From the IMG/VR virus record IMGVR_UViG_3300021963_005267, positions 42,584 to 106,583 of that record: 64,000 nucleotides of DNA. One strand, written 5' to 3'. Below are positions 3,181-63,537 of the stretch, one piece after another (position 1 is the first letter of the stretch; each line of letters starts with the position of its first letter). A program made the translations under genes and the position numbers. Origin of the DNA: a virus. The notes beneath the pieces are model-generated. The model did no database searches. It had not been told where the DNA came from and saw nothing but the letters and a program-made list of their open reading frames with translations.

Positions 3181-4389
3181 GTGAAACAAAGAAATTACAC
3201 ACAAGACACAGTCCGCAAGTTACAAGGCTCATTACAAATTGAGCATACTTTAGCAAAACGTGGCGCATACAAACTACGCGAGCTATTAGCAAACGAACCA
3301 TACGTTAATACGCTAGGCGCATACAGCGGTCAACAAGCCGTTCAACATGCCAAAGCAGGACTCAAAGCAATTTACCTATCAGGCTGGCAAGTAGCCGCAG
3401 CCGCAAACACAGCAAACCAAACATATCCAGATCAAAGTTTATATCCAGTAAACTCTGTCCCAACAATCGTACGACAAATTAACAATGCTTTCCGTCGTGC
3501 TGATCAAATTGAATACTCAGAAGGTAATGCGACTACAGATTACTTCTTACCAATTGTAGCAGATGCTGAAGCAGGCTTTGGTGGTGCGTTAAACGCATAT
3601 GAACTAATGATGGCAATGATTGAAGCAGGAGCCGCAGGCGTACACTTTGAAGATCAATTAAGTTCAGAAAAGAAATGTGGACACTTAGGTGGTAAGGTTT
3701 TAATTCCTACTAGCCAAGCAATTCGCAACCTACAGGCCGCACGTCTAGCAAGTGACGTAGCAGGTGTTGACACAGTTATCATGGCACGTACAGATGCCGA
3801 ATCTGCTACACTGATCACTAGCGATCATGACCCATTAGACAAGGATTTTATTATTAATGAACGTACTGACGAAGGTTTTTACAAATTTAAAAACGGGCTT
3901 GATGCTTGTATTAGGAGAGGTCTTGCTTATGCCCCTTACGCTGATCTCCTTTGGTTCGAAACTAGCACACCTGATATCAAACAGGCTAGAGTCTTTGCTG
4001 AAGCGATCCGTGCCCGTTATCCTGATCAAATGCTTGCTTATAATTGCAGTCCTAGTTTTAATTGGCAAAAGTTTTTAAGCATTGAAGAATGTGAAACATT
4101 CCAACGTGAACTAGGCGAACTAGGTTATAAGTTTCAGTTCATAACACTAGCAGGCTTCCACTCGGTTAATCTTGCTACATTTGAACTTGCTGAAGCATAT
4201 CGTTTACGTGGTATGGCTGGTTATAGCGAAATGCAACAACGTGAGTTTGAAGCACAGGCTCGTGGCTTTACTACTGTTAAACATCAACGTGAAGTTGGCG
4301 TTGGTTACTTTGATTTAATTAGTGAAGCAGTTGGTGCTACATCTACAGTTGCTAACAAGAGCTCTACAGAAGCAGATCAGTTCCACTAA
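3181..4389 (+). CDS. aceA: Isocitrate lyase
   Basis: The 402-residue protein is a near full-length isocitrate lyase, which splits isocitrate into glyoxylate and succinate in the glyoxylate shunt. It has the catalytic KKCGH block in [12 protein letters not shown] (about residues 161-172), metal and substrate residues in ADAEAGFGG (about 128) and MARTDAES (about 201). The start is GTG with AAGGAGA nine bases upstream. The segment 3830-4080 uses far more T-ending codons (GCT, CTT, CCT) than the flanks. A late promoter box precedes it. It would redirect host carbon flux; this is an uncommon phage gene. Confidence 0.95.
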
Positions 4390-4396
4390 ATATTAA

Positions 4397-5104
4397 ATGG
4401 AAACTATTATAGCAACGTTAGTGATGACGCACATCACAATAGTGTGCGTCACACTATACCTGCATCGTGGACAGGCTCATAGAGGCATAACCTTTAATTT
4501 TATATTTGAACATCTAATACGTTTTTGGTTATGGCTTACTACTGGTATGGTCACAAAACAATGGGTGGCGATACATCGTAAGCATCACAGATTTAGTGAT
4601 GAACAAGGCGACCCGCATAGTCCGCACGTATACGGTATTTGGCGTGTGTTGTTTAAAGGTGCTGTATTATATCATACTGCAAGTAAAGATTCTGAAATGA
4701 TTCAACAATACGGAGTTGGTACTCCAGACGATTGGATCGAACGTAATTTGTATACCCCACACAGTCGCTGGGGGATTCTCTTAATGTTGGTCATAGACCT
4801 TGTTCTTTTTGGACCTGTAGGACTAGTAGTTTGGGGTATACAAATGCTTTGGATTCCTTTCTGGGCCGCAGGAGTAATTAACGGCCTTGCTCATTGGTGG
4901 GGGTACCGCAATGGTGAAACAAAAGATAGATCTAGAAATATATTTCCTATTGGCATTATCATTGGTGGTGAATGCCTTCACAATAATCATCATCTTGAGC
5001 CTGCTAATCCCAAACTAAGTCGTCGCTGGTTTGAGTTTGACATAGGATGGATGTGGTTTAAAATCTTTAATTTATTAGGATTGGCTAAACTTAGAAATGT
5101 TTGA
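4397..5104 (+). CDS. Fatty acid (acyl) desaturase
   Basis: The 235-residue membrane protein carries the three histidine boxes of integral-membrane acyl desaturases: HRGQAH (about residues 23-28), HRKHH (about 60-64) and HNNHH (about 199-203). These bind the di-iron centre. Hydrophobic stretches at 3-20, 35-52, 115-135 and 140-158 fit membrane helices. It is shorter than host enzymes, as phage versions tend to be. It would introduce a double bond in host membrane lipids. It follows isocitrate lyase by seven bases, in one operon. Confidence 0.9.
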   Translation: METIIATLVMTHITIVCVTLYLHRGQAHRGITFNFIFEHLIRFWLWLTTGMVTKQWVAIHRKHHRFSDEQGDPHSPHVYGIWRVLFKGAVLYHTASKDSEMIQQYGVGTPDDWIERNLYTPHSRWGILLMLVIDLVLFGPVGLVVWGIQMLWIPFWAAGVINGLAHWWGYRNGETKDRSRNIFPIGIIIGGECLHNNHHLEPANPKLSRRWFEFDIGWMWFKIFNLLGLAKLRNV

Positions 5105-24695: not shown

Positions 24696-24779
24696 ATGGG
24701 ACGATTAGTTCAAAAAAGAGCAGCAAAGACGAAAAAAGCTCAACGTCAAAAAGATACACGCAGAGCTCGTAGTAAGTAA
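24696..24779 (+). CDS. Tiny highly basic protein 1
   Basis: A 27-residue ORF with 13 Lys or Arg: MGRLVQKRAAKTKKAQ and then RQKDTRRARSK. AAGGAATGATT precedes the ATG. It is one of two consecutive tiny basic ORFs immediately upstream of the tmRNA gene. It resembles small ribosomal or RNA-binding peptides in composition only. Confidence 0.5.
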   Translation: MGRLVQKRAAKTKKAQRQKDTRRARSK

Positions 24780-24781
24780 TC

Positions 24782-24859
24782 ATGGCTAGAAAATGGCGAG
24801 CACATCATAAGAGCTCTGTTCGTGCAACAGCACGTAGAGTTCTTAAGAAACGTAAGTAA
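24782..24859 (+). CDS. Tiny highly basic protein 2
   Basis: A 25-residue ORF, MARKWRAHHKSSV and then RATARRVLKKRK, starting two bases after the previous stop and ending about 10 bases before the tmRNA acceptor segment. It has a very high Arg/Lys/His content. An RNA or ribosome contact is possible but rests only on composition and place. Confidence 0.5.
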   Translation: MARKWRAHHKSSVRATARRVLKKRK

Positions 24860-24869
24860 AGAATTGTTG

Positions 24870-25215
24870 TAACTCCTTCAAAGCGAAGGACTCTTGGACG
24901 CGGGTTCGACTCCCGCCAGGTCCACCATAAAATGTTTTTGTTGAGCTTGATGCTTTGACTGATCAACATAGCTACATAGGGTAGATAAGAACATTTTATA
25001 ATGGGCCTGCACTGGTTTCGACAGGGGTAGATAGTAGAGACGGCAACACGGTAGGCGATGACCGTAAATCAAGCAAAACAAGTAAACGCAAACGCATTTA
25101 CATCACAAGAGTTATTCGTAGTTAAAAGCGTTAAATTCGCTGCTAACGACGAAATGCTACAAGCAGCCTAATAAGCAACTCCGGGGCAGTTATGCCTTGT
25201 TACCCAAAATAACAG
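24870..25215 (+). ncRNA. ssrA: Circularly permuted (two-piece) tmRNA
   Basis: The 3' tRNA-like half comes first: T-arm GCGGG-TTCGACT-CCCGC (24900-24916), acceptor strand CAGGTCC (24917-24923), A, then encoded CCA (24925-24927). A 75-base insert follows; its ends form a perfect 10-bp helix (ATAAAATGTT with AACATTTTAT). The coding half starts at 25003 with GGGCCTG, which pairs all seven bases with CAGGTCC, including a G3-U70 wobble, the alanine identity element. GGTTTCGACAGGGG is the tmRNA D-arm. A pseudoknot stem (ACGGT/ACCGT, 25030-25055) is followed by an open tag frame to a double TAA (25169-25174). The likely resume codon is GCA at 25088, giving a 27-residue tag starting ANAFTSQELF and ending AANDEMLQAA; a short 10-residue tag is the alternative. 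Two-piece tmRNAs are established in alphaproteobacteria and some cyanobacteria and betaproteobacteria. Confidence 0.92.
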
Positions 25216-25243
25216 AAATGGCTACTTCGGTAGCCATTTTTTT
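25216..25243 (+). terminator. Strong rho-independent terminator of the tmRNA gene
   Basis: AAATGGCTAC and GTAGCCATTT form a 10-bp stem with a stable TTCG loop, followed by a T run. Confidence 0.93.
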
Positions 25244-25244
25244 A

Positions 25245-25273
25245 TTGACAACATCCTAAAAGTATCATACACT
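25245..25273 (+). promoter_or_regulatory. Sigma70-like promoter
   Basis: TTGACA, 17 bp, TACACT. It starts right after the tmRNA terminator and drives the AAA+ ATPase gene with a leader of about 35 bases. Confidence 0.7.
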
Positions 25274-37188: not shown

Positions 37189-38208
37189 ATGCGTATCGAA
37201 GACGAAGTCAAATTAGACTTCCGTGATGTGCTGATTCGTCCTAAGCGTTCTACGCTTTCAAGCCGCAAGGAAGTAGATCTCACCCGTACATATAAATTTA
37301 AGCACAGTAGATTCCAATGGACCGGTGTTCCTGTAATGGCCGCTAACATGGACGGTGTGGGCACTATAGAAATGGCTAGGAAACTTTATAAGCATCAGAT
37401 GTTTACCTGCCTAGTTAAAAACTATGCCGAAGACGATCTTTTTGATCTAACTGGTAAGTTCGGTGGAAATTATTTTGCCGTTAGTACCGGAATCAGTGAT
37501 AAAGATTTTCTAAAACTAAGACAGATATTAAATGCCTATCCAGAAATTCATTTCATCTGTATTGATGTGGCCAATGGATATAGTGAACACTTTGGTGAAT
37601 ATGTTTCTAAAGTTAGGCAAACATATCCTGAACACACTATTATCGCAGGTAACGTTGTTACCGCAGACATGACACAGGAGTTAATTTTACGTGGAGCAGA
37701 TATTGTTAAAGTTGGGATTGGCCCTGGCAGTGTCTGTACGACTCGTATACAGACTGGTGTTGGGTACCCTCAACTTTCTGCTATCATCGAGTGCGCTGAT
37801 GCTGCTCACGGTCTTGGTGGCCATATCGTGGCTGATGGCGGGTGTACTTGCCCCGGTGATGTGGCTAAAGCGTTTGGTGCTGGGGCAGACTTCGTAATGC
37901 TTGGAGGTTTGTTAGCCGGACACGACGAAGGCGGCGGTGACATTAAAGATGGTAAAGTTACATTCTATGGTATGAGTTCAGACACTGCAATGAACAAACA
38001 CAATGGCGGGGTTGCCGAATATAGAAGTTCAGAAGGCCGCACAGTTGAGATTCCTTATAAAGGAGCAGTCCAAGATACAGTTCTAGATCTACTAGGAGGC
38101 TTACGCAGTACCTGCACTTATGTTGGTGCTCCTAGTCTTAAACAACTATCCAAATGCACAACATTCATCCGAGTTAATAAACAAATTAATGATGTATTTG
38201 TAAAATGA
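37189..38208 (+). CDS. guaC: GMP reductase (IMPDH/GMPR family)
   Basis: The 339-residue protein has GMP reductase features: [17 protein letters not shown] at the start, the catalytic Cys loop [20 protein letters not shown] (about 176-195), [14 protein letters not shown], and [13 protein letters not shown] near the C-terminus. No CBS domain is present, and length fits GuaC (about 347). It converts GMP to IMP with NADPH, shifting purines. The segment 37690-37910 over the catalytic loop uses T- and C-ending codons unlike the rest. Confidence 0.93.
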
Positions 38209-41961: not shown

Positions 41962-42504
41962 ATGAGCTTAAGAGAACTTACCGCACAAAAACACAAAGAA
42001 GCCGAGGAAACTGCGTTTTCTCAGAAACTAGTATCAGGGCAACTTTCACAAGAAGCCTATGCAGACTACCTTTATCAAATGTTTCTAATCTACACAGGAC
42101 TAGAAGCTGCTTGCTCTCAAAATGGTTTTTTGAGAGACATGGAAGGAATCCAACGTAGTCCACATATCTATGCAGATTGGCTAGAATTAAAAAGTGATAA
42201 AGAATATGAGTGGTTACCAGAAACACATGCTTACTGGAATCACATAATGAATCTAAACGGACCAGAAAGATATCATCTATTAAGAGCACACCAATATACT
42301 AGATATCTTGGAGATCTTTACGGCGGTCAAATGATTGCTAGAGTAGTTCCCGGAGAAGGTCGTTGGTACCATTTCGATAATGCTAAACAACTAAAAGAAA
42401 CTTTAAGATCACATCTCACAGATGATTTAGCAGAAGAAGCTAATCTTAGTTTCGACATGACTATTGCTATCTTTAACGCATTGGATAAGAAACACAGTGA
42501 GTAA
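41962..42504 (+). CDS. Heme oxygenase
   Basis: The 180-residue protein has the proximal-His helix LTAQKHKEAEETAFSQ (His about 11) and the distal helix YLGDLYGGQMI (about 114-124) of biliverdin-forming heme oxygenases. It opens heme to biliverdin, iron and CO. The next gene, overlapping by eight bases, is a bilin reductase, so biliverdin is passed on. Such pairs are known in cyanophages and other environmental phages. Confidence 0.92.
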   Translation: MSLRELTAQKHKEAEETAFSQKLVSGQLSQEAYADYLYQMFLIYTGLEAACSQNGFLRDMEGIQRSPHIYADWLELKSDKEYEWLPETHAYWNHIMNLNGPERYHLLRAHQYTRYLGDLYGGQMIARVVPGEGRWYHFDNAKQLKETLRSHLTDDLAEEANLSFDMTIAIFNALDKKHSE

Positions 42505-43177
42505 AGTTTGGGATACATTGATCAGTGTACAACACCTATTAGAAAAAAGATTTAGTGAAACAGGTGTTGAAACATTTGAACCTGGAATGGATCGTTTTAA
42601 TCAACCAGGTTGGGTAAATAGAGTTTGGTGCAGTGATCATTATCGTAGAGCTCATGTCGATGTAGTGGACGCCCGAGAAACTAAGGGCCTCTGGATGATG
42701 CATTGCTGCATCTTTCCTCATATTCATAATACAGCACCTATATTCGGTTTTGATGTAATTGCAGGTAAAAATAAAATCACAGGTTGTTTTATTGATTATA
42801 GTCCGACAGCAGATAAACAACATCCTATGATTGATTATTTTGCAGAGGAAGTTAGCAGATACGAATGGATTAAAAAACGAGAACTACCAGAATGGGCACA
42901 GCGTATTTTTAGTCCCTACATGATAGCCGCAGGTAATGTACAAAATGAAGATGAATTAAGCCAGATCAGCAGCCTAGCACACATACTGGTAAATCATTAC
43001 TTAGAAACAGTAGGTGAAACTAACAATCGAACTTCAGATACTACATTTGAGCAAAACTACTATGCTCAAAATCAAAAACAAAATCCTCATACTCCTAGAG
43101 TTATGACTAGTTTAGGATTAGATGAAGAAGATGTTCGTGTTTTTATCCAGAATTGTCTGTTCCCAGAAATAAGATAA
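42497..43177 (+). CDS. Ferredoxin-dependent bilin reductase (PcyA/PebS/PcyX-like)
   Basis: The 226-residue protein starts at the GTG inside the heme oxygenase stop. It has the bilin reductase core: RAHVDVVDARETKGLWMMHC, IFPHIHNTAPIFGFDVI with the His/Pro/Asp block, and GCFIDYSPT. It reduces biliverdin to a phycobilin with ferredoxin. Which product cannot be told; the phage PcyX group would make phycoerythrobilin. Strong operon link to heme oxygenase. Confidence 0.88.
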   Translation: MSKVWDTLISVQHLLEKRFSETGVETFEPGMDRFNQPGWVNRVWCSDHYRRAHVDVVDARETKGLWMMHCCIFPHIHNTAPIFGFDVIAGKNKITGCFIDYSPTADKQHPMIDYFAEEVSRYEWIKKRELPEWAQRIFSPYMIAAGNVQNEDELSQISSLAHILVNHYLETVGETNNRTSDTTFEQNYYAQNQKQNPHTPRVMTSLGLDEEDVRVFIQNCLFPEIR

Positions 43178-54588: not shown

Positions 54589-54619
54589 ATACATCTACAC
54601 TTTGATTAAGGATTGGCCG

Positions 54620-55438
54620 ATGATTAGAATTTTATTATCTATGCTGTTATTCTTTTGCATAAACTCCTATGCGAAATCACAACCACATACTGTTTATCTT
54701 TATAACATCACTAAGCAAGAATCGGTGATCGCAAATCATATAGACGATGTAAGGCCAATCGCTAGCATTACTAAATTGATGACTGCTGTAGTGTCTTTAG
54801 ATTATACCCGAGACATGAACGAGAGACTTATGCTCAGTCGTAAAGCAGGCAGCAGTCTACCCAGGCAAAAATATCCCAGAGGAGATATTCTAAATGCTAT
54901 GTTAGTTAGATCTGACAATGGCAGCGCAGAAACTATAGCAGAGCACTATCCCGGAGGCAGAGAAGAATTCTTATCGGCTATGAATAGCAAAGCTCGTGAG
55001 ATAGGAATGACGGAAACACACTTCGATGATCCAACGGGATTACTAGCCACTAACATCAGTACAGCTAAAGATCTTTCGATACTGCTAAAGTATGCATTAA
55101 GATACGAACATATTAAAAAAATCAGTATTAAAAAACACACTATAGTTGAAGTTCAATATAAAAAGAAAATACGTAAGATTAATCTTAACAATACTAATAG
55201 TCCAATACTTTTTGAGTTTGATAATGTCCTAGTAACAAAGACTGGTTACACATCTAAAGCCGGTAAGTGTATTGCAATGGTGGTTGAAAAGGGAAATCAA
55301 AAATACACTATTGTTATATTAGGAGCCAAAACAGTAGCACAACGTATTGACTTAATTAAAGACTTAATGTATAATCACCTTAATGATGATGAGATAATAA
55401 TCGAAGCCGAACCACCACCATTAGGTAATCCAATATGA
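54620..55438 (+). CDS. D-alanyl-D-alanine carboxypeptidase, S11 (PBP5/6-like)
   Basis: The 272-residue protein has a signal peptide (IRILLSMLLFFCINSYA) and the three penicillin-binding motifs: SITK (SxxK, about 50-53), SDN (SxN, about 103-105) and KTG (about 210-212). It trims stem peptides in the periplasm. It lacks the C-terminal domain and membrane anchor of PBP5. In a phage it may remodel peptidoglycan for entry block or lysis timing. ATG after AAGGATTGGCCG. Confidence 0.87.
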   Translation: MIRILLSMLLFFCINSYAKSQPHTVYLYNITKQESVIANHIDDVRPIASITKLMTAVVSLDYTRDMNERLMLSRKAGSSLPRQKYPRGDILNAMLVRSDNGSAETIAEHYPGGREEFLSAMNSKAREIGMTETHFDDPTGLLATNISTAKDLSILLKYALRYEHIKKISIKKHTIVEVQYKKKIRKINLNNTNSPILFEFDNVLVTKTGYTSKAGKCIAMVVEKGNQKYTIVILGAKTVAQRIDLIKDLMYNHLNDDEIIIEAEPPPLGNPI

Positions 55439-61866: not shown

Positions 61867-61941
61867 GCGTCTATCGCCAAATGGAAAGGCAGGGGCCTCT
61901 AAAACCTCTATGCGTGGGTTCGATTCCCACTGGACGCACCA
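61867..61941 (+). tRNA. Suppressor tRNA, anticodon CUA (amber)
   Basis: A complete 75-base tRNA with encoded CCA: acceptor GCGTCTA with TGGACGC, D-stem GCC/GGC with GG in the loop, anticodon loop CTCTAAA with U33 and anticodon CUA, 5-base variable loop, T-arm GTGGG-TTCGATT-CCCAC. The anticodon stem has a C-A mismatch at 31-39. The D-arm (TATCGCCAA..AAGGCA) resembles tRNA-Gln, but G1-C72 and A73 do not fit GlnRS identity, so the amino acid is open. It would read UAG. It abuts the zinc-ribbon gene stop. Confidence 0.88.
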
Positions 61942-62976: not shown

Positions 62977-63537
62977 GTGAAAAACTTCAATGAATTTAAT
63001 GCGGGCGATCGCGTTGAGGTTAAACTTCTAGAAAATTCGGTACATTTTCTTGTTGGCGAAATTTCAGAAGATAATATCAGCGAGTGTATAAAATGGATAG
63101 TCTATGAAAATCTAGACACCAGCAAACAAAAGATCCTAACACTGTATATCAACTCAACTGGCGGCAATCTTTACGATGCATTTGCCCTCATCGATGTGAT
63201 GAGATCTAGCACACATCAAATCCGAACGATTGGTATAGGAGCAGTAATGAGTGCAGCATTCCTTATATTTGCCGCTGGACATCAGGGTGAACGATATGCT
63301 GCTCGTAACACCAGCTATATGTGTCATCAATTTACAGAAAGTATGCACGACAAATATCACGACCTCAAGGCCACTATGCGAGAGAACGATCTCTGCAATC
63401 AAAAAATGATCAACATATTACGGGATTCAACAGGCTTGACAGCAAGTAAAATCAAAGTTAAACTACTACCAGCGAGCGATGTATACCTTAAGGCAGACGA
63501 ACTCATCGAGCTAGGCGTAGCGGATCACATCCTGTAA
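62977..63537 (+). CDS. ClpP-like serine protease
   Basis: The 186-residue protein has the ClpP fold: [20 protein letters not shown], the nucleophile in IGAVMSAAF (Ser about 94), catalytic His in YMCHQFTES (about 119) and a C-terminal Asp region ([20 protein letters not shown]). Starts at GTG after AGAGGATCC. T4-like environmental phages carry such proteins, either as prohead protease or as true ClpP. With the phage ClpS and tmRNA it could form a degradation route. Confidence 0.88.

Follow-up and report, generated by a model that had tools for sequence, protein, structure and literature searches.

A phage-encoded two-piece tmRNA gene with an unusually long tag peptide, apparently maintained by selection

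The usual explanation for a tmRNA in a phage is that it is a spare copy of the host gene. Why should a phage carry a tmRNA whose reading frame specifies a tag of 27 residues? This question is raised by a locus in a stretch of 64,000 nucleotides (the window), which corresponds to G000:C1:42584-106583 of a 106,583-base IMG/VR virus record. The record looks viral from its gene content, as it encodes families of tail-fibre, endolysin and virion proteins, a ribonucleotide reductase and a DNA ligase; no terminase was found among its scanned proteins, and it may be a fragment. The phage also encodes DnaK, and host-like metabolic genes were noted in the window at 3181–5104, 37189–38208, 42464–43177 and 54602–55438, the set comprising isocitrate lyase, a fatty acid desaturase, an IMP dehydrogenase/GMP reductase domain, a ferredoxin-dependent bilin reductase and a D-Ala-D-Ala carboxypeptidase.

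The original prediction for this locus was a phage-encoded circularly permuted tmRNA with a long tag, for which permuted covariance models and ARAGORN had been named as a check. ARAGORN placed a permuted tmRNA gene at 24835–25262 on the plus strand, with the tag ANAFTSQELFVVKSVKFAANDEMLQAA followed by two stops. Two Rfam models agreed over their full length, RF04321 (tmRNA_permuted) with 129.5 bits (cut-off 47, E 4.9e-25) and RF01850 (beta_tmRNA) with 121.8 bits (cut-off 84, E 1.4e-36). As both matches are at gathering level, chance is excluded, and 24835–25262 is, by these models, a complete phage-encoded permuted (two-piece) tmRNA gene of betaproteobacterial type.

All parts of the gene lie on the plus strand. 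The tRNA-like 3′ half comes first (24865–24927; positions 1–213 of the RF04321 model align from 24865) and contains a D-arm remnant, the T-arm, the 3′ acceptor strand (24917–24923), the discriminator A24924 and an encoded CCA (24925–24927). It is followed by a 75 nt intervening segment (24928–25002), presumably removed in processing and closed by a perfect 10 bp helix (24927–24936/24990–24999) that takes in the last A of the CCA; in phage relatives this segment measures 43–209 nt according to a heuristic parse. The 5′ half up to the resume codon (25003–25087), as delimited by the Rfam alignment and the sequence, carries the 5′ acceptor strand (25003–25009), a GGTTTCGAC motif and the PK1 stem (25049–25052/25061–25064). 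The tag reading frame (25088–25168) opens with the resume codon GCA (25088–25090), specifies 27 residues in agreement with ARAGORN and ends in a double stop, TAA TAA (25169–25174). An intrinsic terminator, a TTCG-loop hairpin with a T-run, lies at 25218–25243, and the RF01850 alignment reaches 25242.

The separated acceptor strands, GGGCCTG (25003–25009) and CAGGTCC (24917–24923), pair at all seven positions, with G25005 and U24921 forming the G3-U70 alanine identity pair. The window tmRNA thus combines what characterizes the beta-type permuted form: model score, CCA-bearing half first, acceptor pairing, G3-U70 and PK1 spacing. The two acceptor halves covary in a set of 87 distinct relatives from phages and bacteria, with 36 GC and 40 CG pairs at position 4, 42 CG, 20 GC and 14 AT at position 5, and 54 TA, 19 AT and 6 CG at position 6, counts that are slightly optimistic because they come from a best-match heuristic; G3-U70 was present in 81 of the 87. 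Stem 1 of PK1 likewise showed compensated pairs, 11 GC to 11 AU. The order of the halves, the acceptor pairing with its alanine signal, the helix-closed 75-base insert, the TTCG-loop terminator and the 27-residue frame from GCA 25088 to the double TAA had all been named beforehand, and each was confirmed on the sequence.

One part of the original prediction was wrong, namely that a phage two-piece tmRNA had not been described. Two-piece forms, Melnitz included, account for 53 of 133 distinct phage tmRNAs (PMC9004378), a further compilation lists 79 bacteriophage tmRNAs together with a permuted model (PMC11915505), and huge phages with both tmRNA and SmpB have been reported (PMC7162821). In addition, the Stenotrophomonas phages Bhz51 and Marzo have an annotated tmRNA that is permuted according to ARAGORN, and permuted tmRNAs were found in Moby, BUCTxx99, Pseudomonas phage PA_L9, Xanthomonas phages XacN1 and X1 and Alcaligenes phage QDWS595; in QDWS595 ARAGORN also called a tRNA with anticodon TTA that overlaps the end of the tmRNA. 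In the stretch examined, these six isolates (loci L263, L264, L265, L266, L269 and L270) show no tmRNA feature. The tags of the examined cultured isolates are 10–14 aa long. Thus, a two-piece tmRNA in a phage is of an already known kind, and within the literature searched the new part is the tag, which the original prediction had mentioned yet treated as incidental, and for which no published counterpart was found.

Comparison with known systems leads to the same feature. With the two-piece tmRNA of Betaproteobacteria (RF01850, RF04321) the window gene shares the permuted order, encoded CCA, G3-U70, PK1, resume position and terminator, but it is phage-borne and its tag has 27 aa, against 10–12 aa in the bacterial homologues examined. 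The Menderavirus phages Bhz51, Marzo and Moby also have a permuted tmRNA, located just upstream of nrdA in those cultured phages, whereas their tag is of 14 aa, VAANDDSYTVRIAA, as called by ARAGORN. Mycoplasmas do have long tmRNA tags of ∼27 aa, so such a length exists elsewhere, but their tmRNA is of the standard one-piece form and the tag sequence is unrelated to the phage long tags. The ssrA of the methylophage Melnitz and the other phage two-piece tmRNAs are similarly phage-encoded and permuted, although the Melnitz gene is alphaproteobacterial in affinity and occurs with a glutamine riboswitch (PMC9004378); tag length is absent from the main-text discussion of that paper.

For the reading of tags the resume codon was anchored on the PK1 motif; ARAGORN alone shortens some long tags (e.g. 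L083, L156). The resume codon lies 9–11 nt past this motif in phages and bacteria, with one exception, the GTC-start case L174; in the window the distance is 10 nt, matching that in bacterial homologues. Among the IMG/VR matches listed, 103 distinct phage tag coding sequences fell into two classes, 70 of 9–14 aa and 33 of 21–35 aa, with none between. The window tag does not conform in length and sequence to the ordinary SsrA type of 8–14 aa and falls in the separate long class. We define the long-tag group by a beta-type PK1, a tag of 21–35 aa and, preceding the C-terminal part, an extension conserved in frame, all of which the window tmRNA possesses. Long tags exceed the usual length by a factor of two to three, and the group has so far been found only in uncultivated phages.

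Related long-tag families, e.g. ANVSTFKFWQSPVSVAANDEAFALAA, AKTSTFEYFQVPVTLATANDAEFELAA, ANADTFDFSAMSFTGNTVRGAANESRFALAA, ANANTTEAEVMTFVWDLPANESRYALAA and AKASTGEVTVSGKGVKFSARTVKAESFAV, usually show the same layout of first residues, an extension of ∼12–20 residues and a canonical-like end. In the window tag the extension comprises residues 2–17 (25091–25138, plus strand), which are missing from ordinary 10-aa tags and correspond to homologous extensions in 33 distinct phage tags, and it is followed by the degron-like C-terminal part AANDEMLQAA (25139–25168, plus strand), recognized by alignment with relatives and host tags. Among the matches listed, 27 of the 33 long tags end in AA and all 33 are followed by a TAA stop; a few end in AV, LA or VA. 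The motif TF[EKD][FY][FW].V recurs in the extensions. A subfamily (L086, L150, L155 and L188) ends in FAV or LAV, not LAA, and with the LAA end lost these tags could be non-degrading; several of its members lie beside many phage tRNAs. A further long-tag tmRNA (L016:1-71, ...KSAFQYYEVDVAVNDSKFALAA) is cut by the contig start, and the same record has a CTA tRNA.

Over 907 long-tag codons the tag frame contained no stops, compared with 62 and 75 in the other two frames. Based on 12 non-overlapping pairs of related tags, pN/pS of the extension was 0.39 in frame (Fisher 5e-5) versus 1.56 and 1.39 out of frame, and that of the C-terminal part was 0.36. RNAalifold found no conserved base pair inside the extension, whereas the PK1 stem covaries, and a structured RNA was accordingly rejected as the origin of the constraint. 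Nor does the extension appear to be a copy of a phage protein, as no six-frame match was detected in the phage or in the relatives' loci, apart from the truncated long-tag tmRNA of L016. The stop-free frame, the in-frame pN/pS and the lack of conserved pairing together indicate that the extension is read as a peptide and kept by selection.

Two simpler readings of the long frame were weighed against these data. Translation might resume downstream at GCT 25139, leaving 25088–25138 as an untranslated spacer before an ordinary 10-aa tag, and the last ten residues indeed resemble a complete ordinary tag; with the resume position fixed 9–11 nt after PK1 in phages as well as bacteria, and with extensions that are stop-free and under purifying selection in the tag frame only, we regard such a start as very improbable. 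Alternatively, the extension could be translated and yet be a tolerated insertion without function, as extensions vary between subfamilies while the degron-like C-terminal part stays. This is improbable, though less so than a downstream start, in view of an extension pN/pS close to that of the C-terminal part, the recurring motif and the two separate length classes.

To place the gene among its relatives, the neighbouring AAA-ATPase was used as query and yielded 59 IMG/VR loci. RF04321 matched in 15 of 50 records searched and exceeded the cut-off in 13; one record of this set had entered it through a tmRNA pattern match. A pattern for the PK1 region occurred in at least 120 phage loci and 13 bacterial loci, and because 12 of these 13 are Burkholderiales the window tmRNA is assigned to the betaproteobacterial type; the phage host is probably a burkholderial bacterium, as judged from this sequence affinity. 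Upstream of the tmRNA, 18 loci (8 with long tags, 10 with short tags) encode a DUF454 protein, and in 31 loci a 96-aa protein is its neighbour; these shared neighbours point to a stable gene position and to a tmRNA well established in these phages. Integration often takes place at tmRNA genes (PMC11915505), which would allow for a host gene captured at such a site and now decaying, but an intact tmRNA with its own terminator, in a conserved position and with homologues in many phages that have diverged from the bacterial copies, makes this origin scarcely credible. When the tag was left out of the tmRNA tree, the long-tag genes grouped together (6 changes versus 25.2 when shuffled), support being weak overall, and the placement of L106 and L138 hints at transfer between backbones. 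The tree also places the phage-like permuted tmRNA of L206 (CALMJT010000228.1) within the phage genes; this 46 kb contig, filed as an Alteromonadales MAG, is perhaps a misbinned phage contig.

A covariance model (R1) built from 22 long-tag sequences gave 79–135 bits for long-tag phages, most of which are training sequences, and 57–69 bits for short-tag phages and bacteria; the window tmRNA, itself a training sequence, scored 113.4 bits. No long-tag tmRNA was found in 768 bacterial genomes (399 Burkholderiales and 369 of the class) under strict filters, the best score being 58 bits, and the ten matched bacterial loci that were checked all had tags of 10–12 aa. Searches by tag peptide and by gene DNA revealed no named phage with a long tag, and no published long phage tag was found in the open-access literature. 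These results are evidence, not proof, that long tags are phage-specific.

What such a tmRNA might do can be outlined from the bacterial family. A single precursor transcript would be processed by host tRNA-processing enzymes that excise the 75 nt insert, and the two mature pieces would be held together by the acceptor stem, charged by host AlaRS through G3-U70 and brought by host SmpB to ribosomes stalled on stop-less mRNA. Translation would then resume at GCA 25088, add the 27-residue tag and end at TAA, and since the degron-like end AANDEMLQAA is kept, Clp proteases of host or phage would be expected to receive the tagged products. The extension would most likely serve as a longer handle or an extra binding site for proteolysis of products stalled during infection. 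We consider it likely that the phage two-piece tmRNA works with host SmpB in this way, rescuing stalled ribosomes and marking their products for Clp by a tag with a selected extension. Against this stand the LQAA terminus of the window tag, which departs from the usual LAA, the AV, LA or VA ends of a few long tags, which would weaken a Clp degron, and the size of the pN/pS test, 12 pairs.

A further point concerns SmpB, which was found neither in the window's phage record nor in 50 phage records, so that tmRNA function would depend on the host protein. This also counts against the rescue function and would suit a decoy acting by titration of host SmpB, comparable to the DS6A RNA, which consists of the tRNA-like domain only; in E. 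coli, tmRNA is inhibited by a molecule of the DS6A type (PMC4131195, PMC11915505). A decoy is nevertheless highly improbable here, as nothing is missing from the mRNA-like domain, PK1, tag or stop, and all of them are under selection.

With rescue and Clp marking as the preferred reading, the proteases themselves deserve attention. The window encodes a divergent ClpP-like protease (62977–63537, plus strand; PF00574, 105 bits), of a type that recurs in many tmRNA phages and sometimes lies close to the tmRNA, and a bona fide ClpP is encoded in the part of the record beyond the window (G000:13400-14164; PF00574, 280 bits). The relatives L227, L229 and L230 encode a ClpA-like protein (823 bits, under the ClpA model cut-off) and ClpX (∼500 bits or more, over the cut-off), amounting to a near-complete predicted phage Clp system. 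In a first set of records above 100 kb, bona fide ClpP (PF00574 of at least 200 bits) was present in 5/5 long-tag versus 2/12 short-tag records. A link between long tag and phage ClpP was nonetheless rejected, because the long-tag L188 (156 kb) is without it and the short-tag L177 and L192 (261 and 286 kb) have it; phage ClpP seems to track genome size. ClpX showed a similar but inverse pattern with tag class, for which no association is claimed. It is doubtful whether phages of this group have remodelled trans-translation such that stalled products receive a phage-specific tag, a re-specified signal recognized by some partner outside the usual ClpXP route of the host (e.g. a phage Clp component or adaptor), but if so the phage would have its own channel for ribosome rescue and disposal inside the host.

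The main benefit could instead concern readthrough, with an amber tRNA driving ribosomes past UAG to the mRNA end, where the phage tmRNA clears them. A CTA tRNA (61867–61941, plus strand), called by ARAGORN as tRNA-Pyl, is a possible functional partner in the same record, and TAG is the stop of only 2 of 105 phage ORFs of at least 100 aa. Reassignment of TAG was rejected, as the codon continues to serve as a stop in some genes and does not interrupt any set of long genes, which argues for avoidance rather than recoding. Similar GCG...CGC CTA tRNAs recur in related phages. With a search model built from CTA tRNAs of the same phage group, a CTA tRNA was found in 9 of 37 tmRNA-bearing records versus 0 of 13 without a detected tmRNA, the records being fragments and partly related, and two of the nine near-copies. 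SsrA copes with suppressor-tRNA readthrough in E. coli (Ueda 2002, as cited in PMC3985003), a precedent that makes readthrough clearance a reasonable extra role. As the main benefit it is unlikely, since no CTA tRNA is seen in the majority of tmRNA phages, the records being fragmentary, and the 59.6 kb fragment of the relative L020 carries a CTA tRNA but lacks a tmRNA.

A lengthened tag under protein-level selection would mean that the phage version does something that the host's does not, and the tag offers a short, cheap and testable peptide for finding that role. Two wider questions are touched by this: how large phages maintain productive ribosomes in the late stages of infection, and why rescue RNAs are found in phages equipped with suppressor tRNAs and Clp genes. 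Immediately upstream of the tmRNA lie two tiny, very basic ORFs, 24696–24779 (27 aa) and 24782–24859 (25 aa), the second of which stops just 5′ of the tmRNA gene. Basic ORFs of 21–40 aa likewise end where the tmRNA starts in L069, L083, L108 and L156, and these are possible candidates for small RNA- or ribosome-binding proteins.
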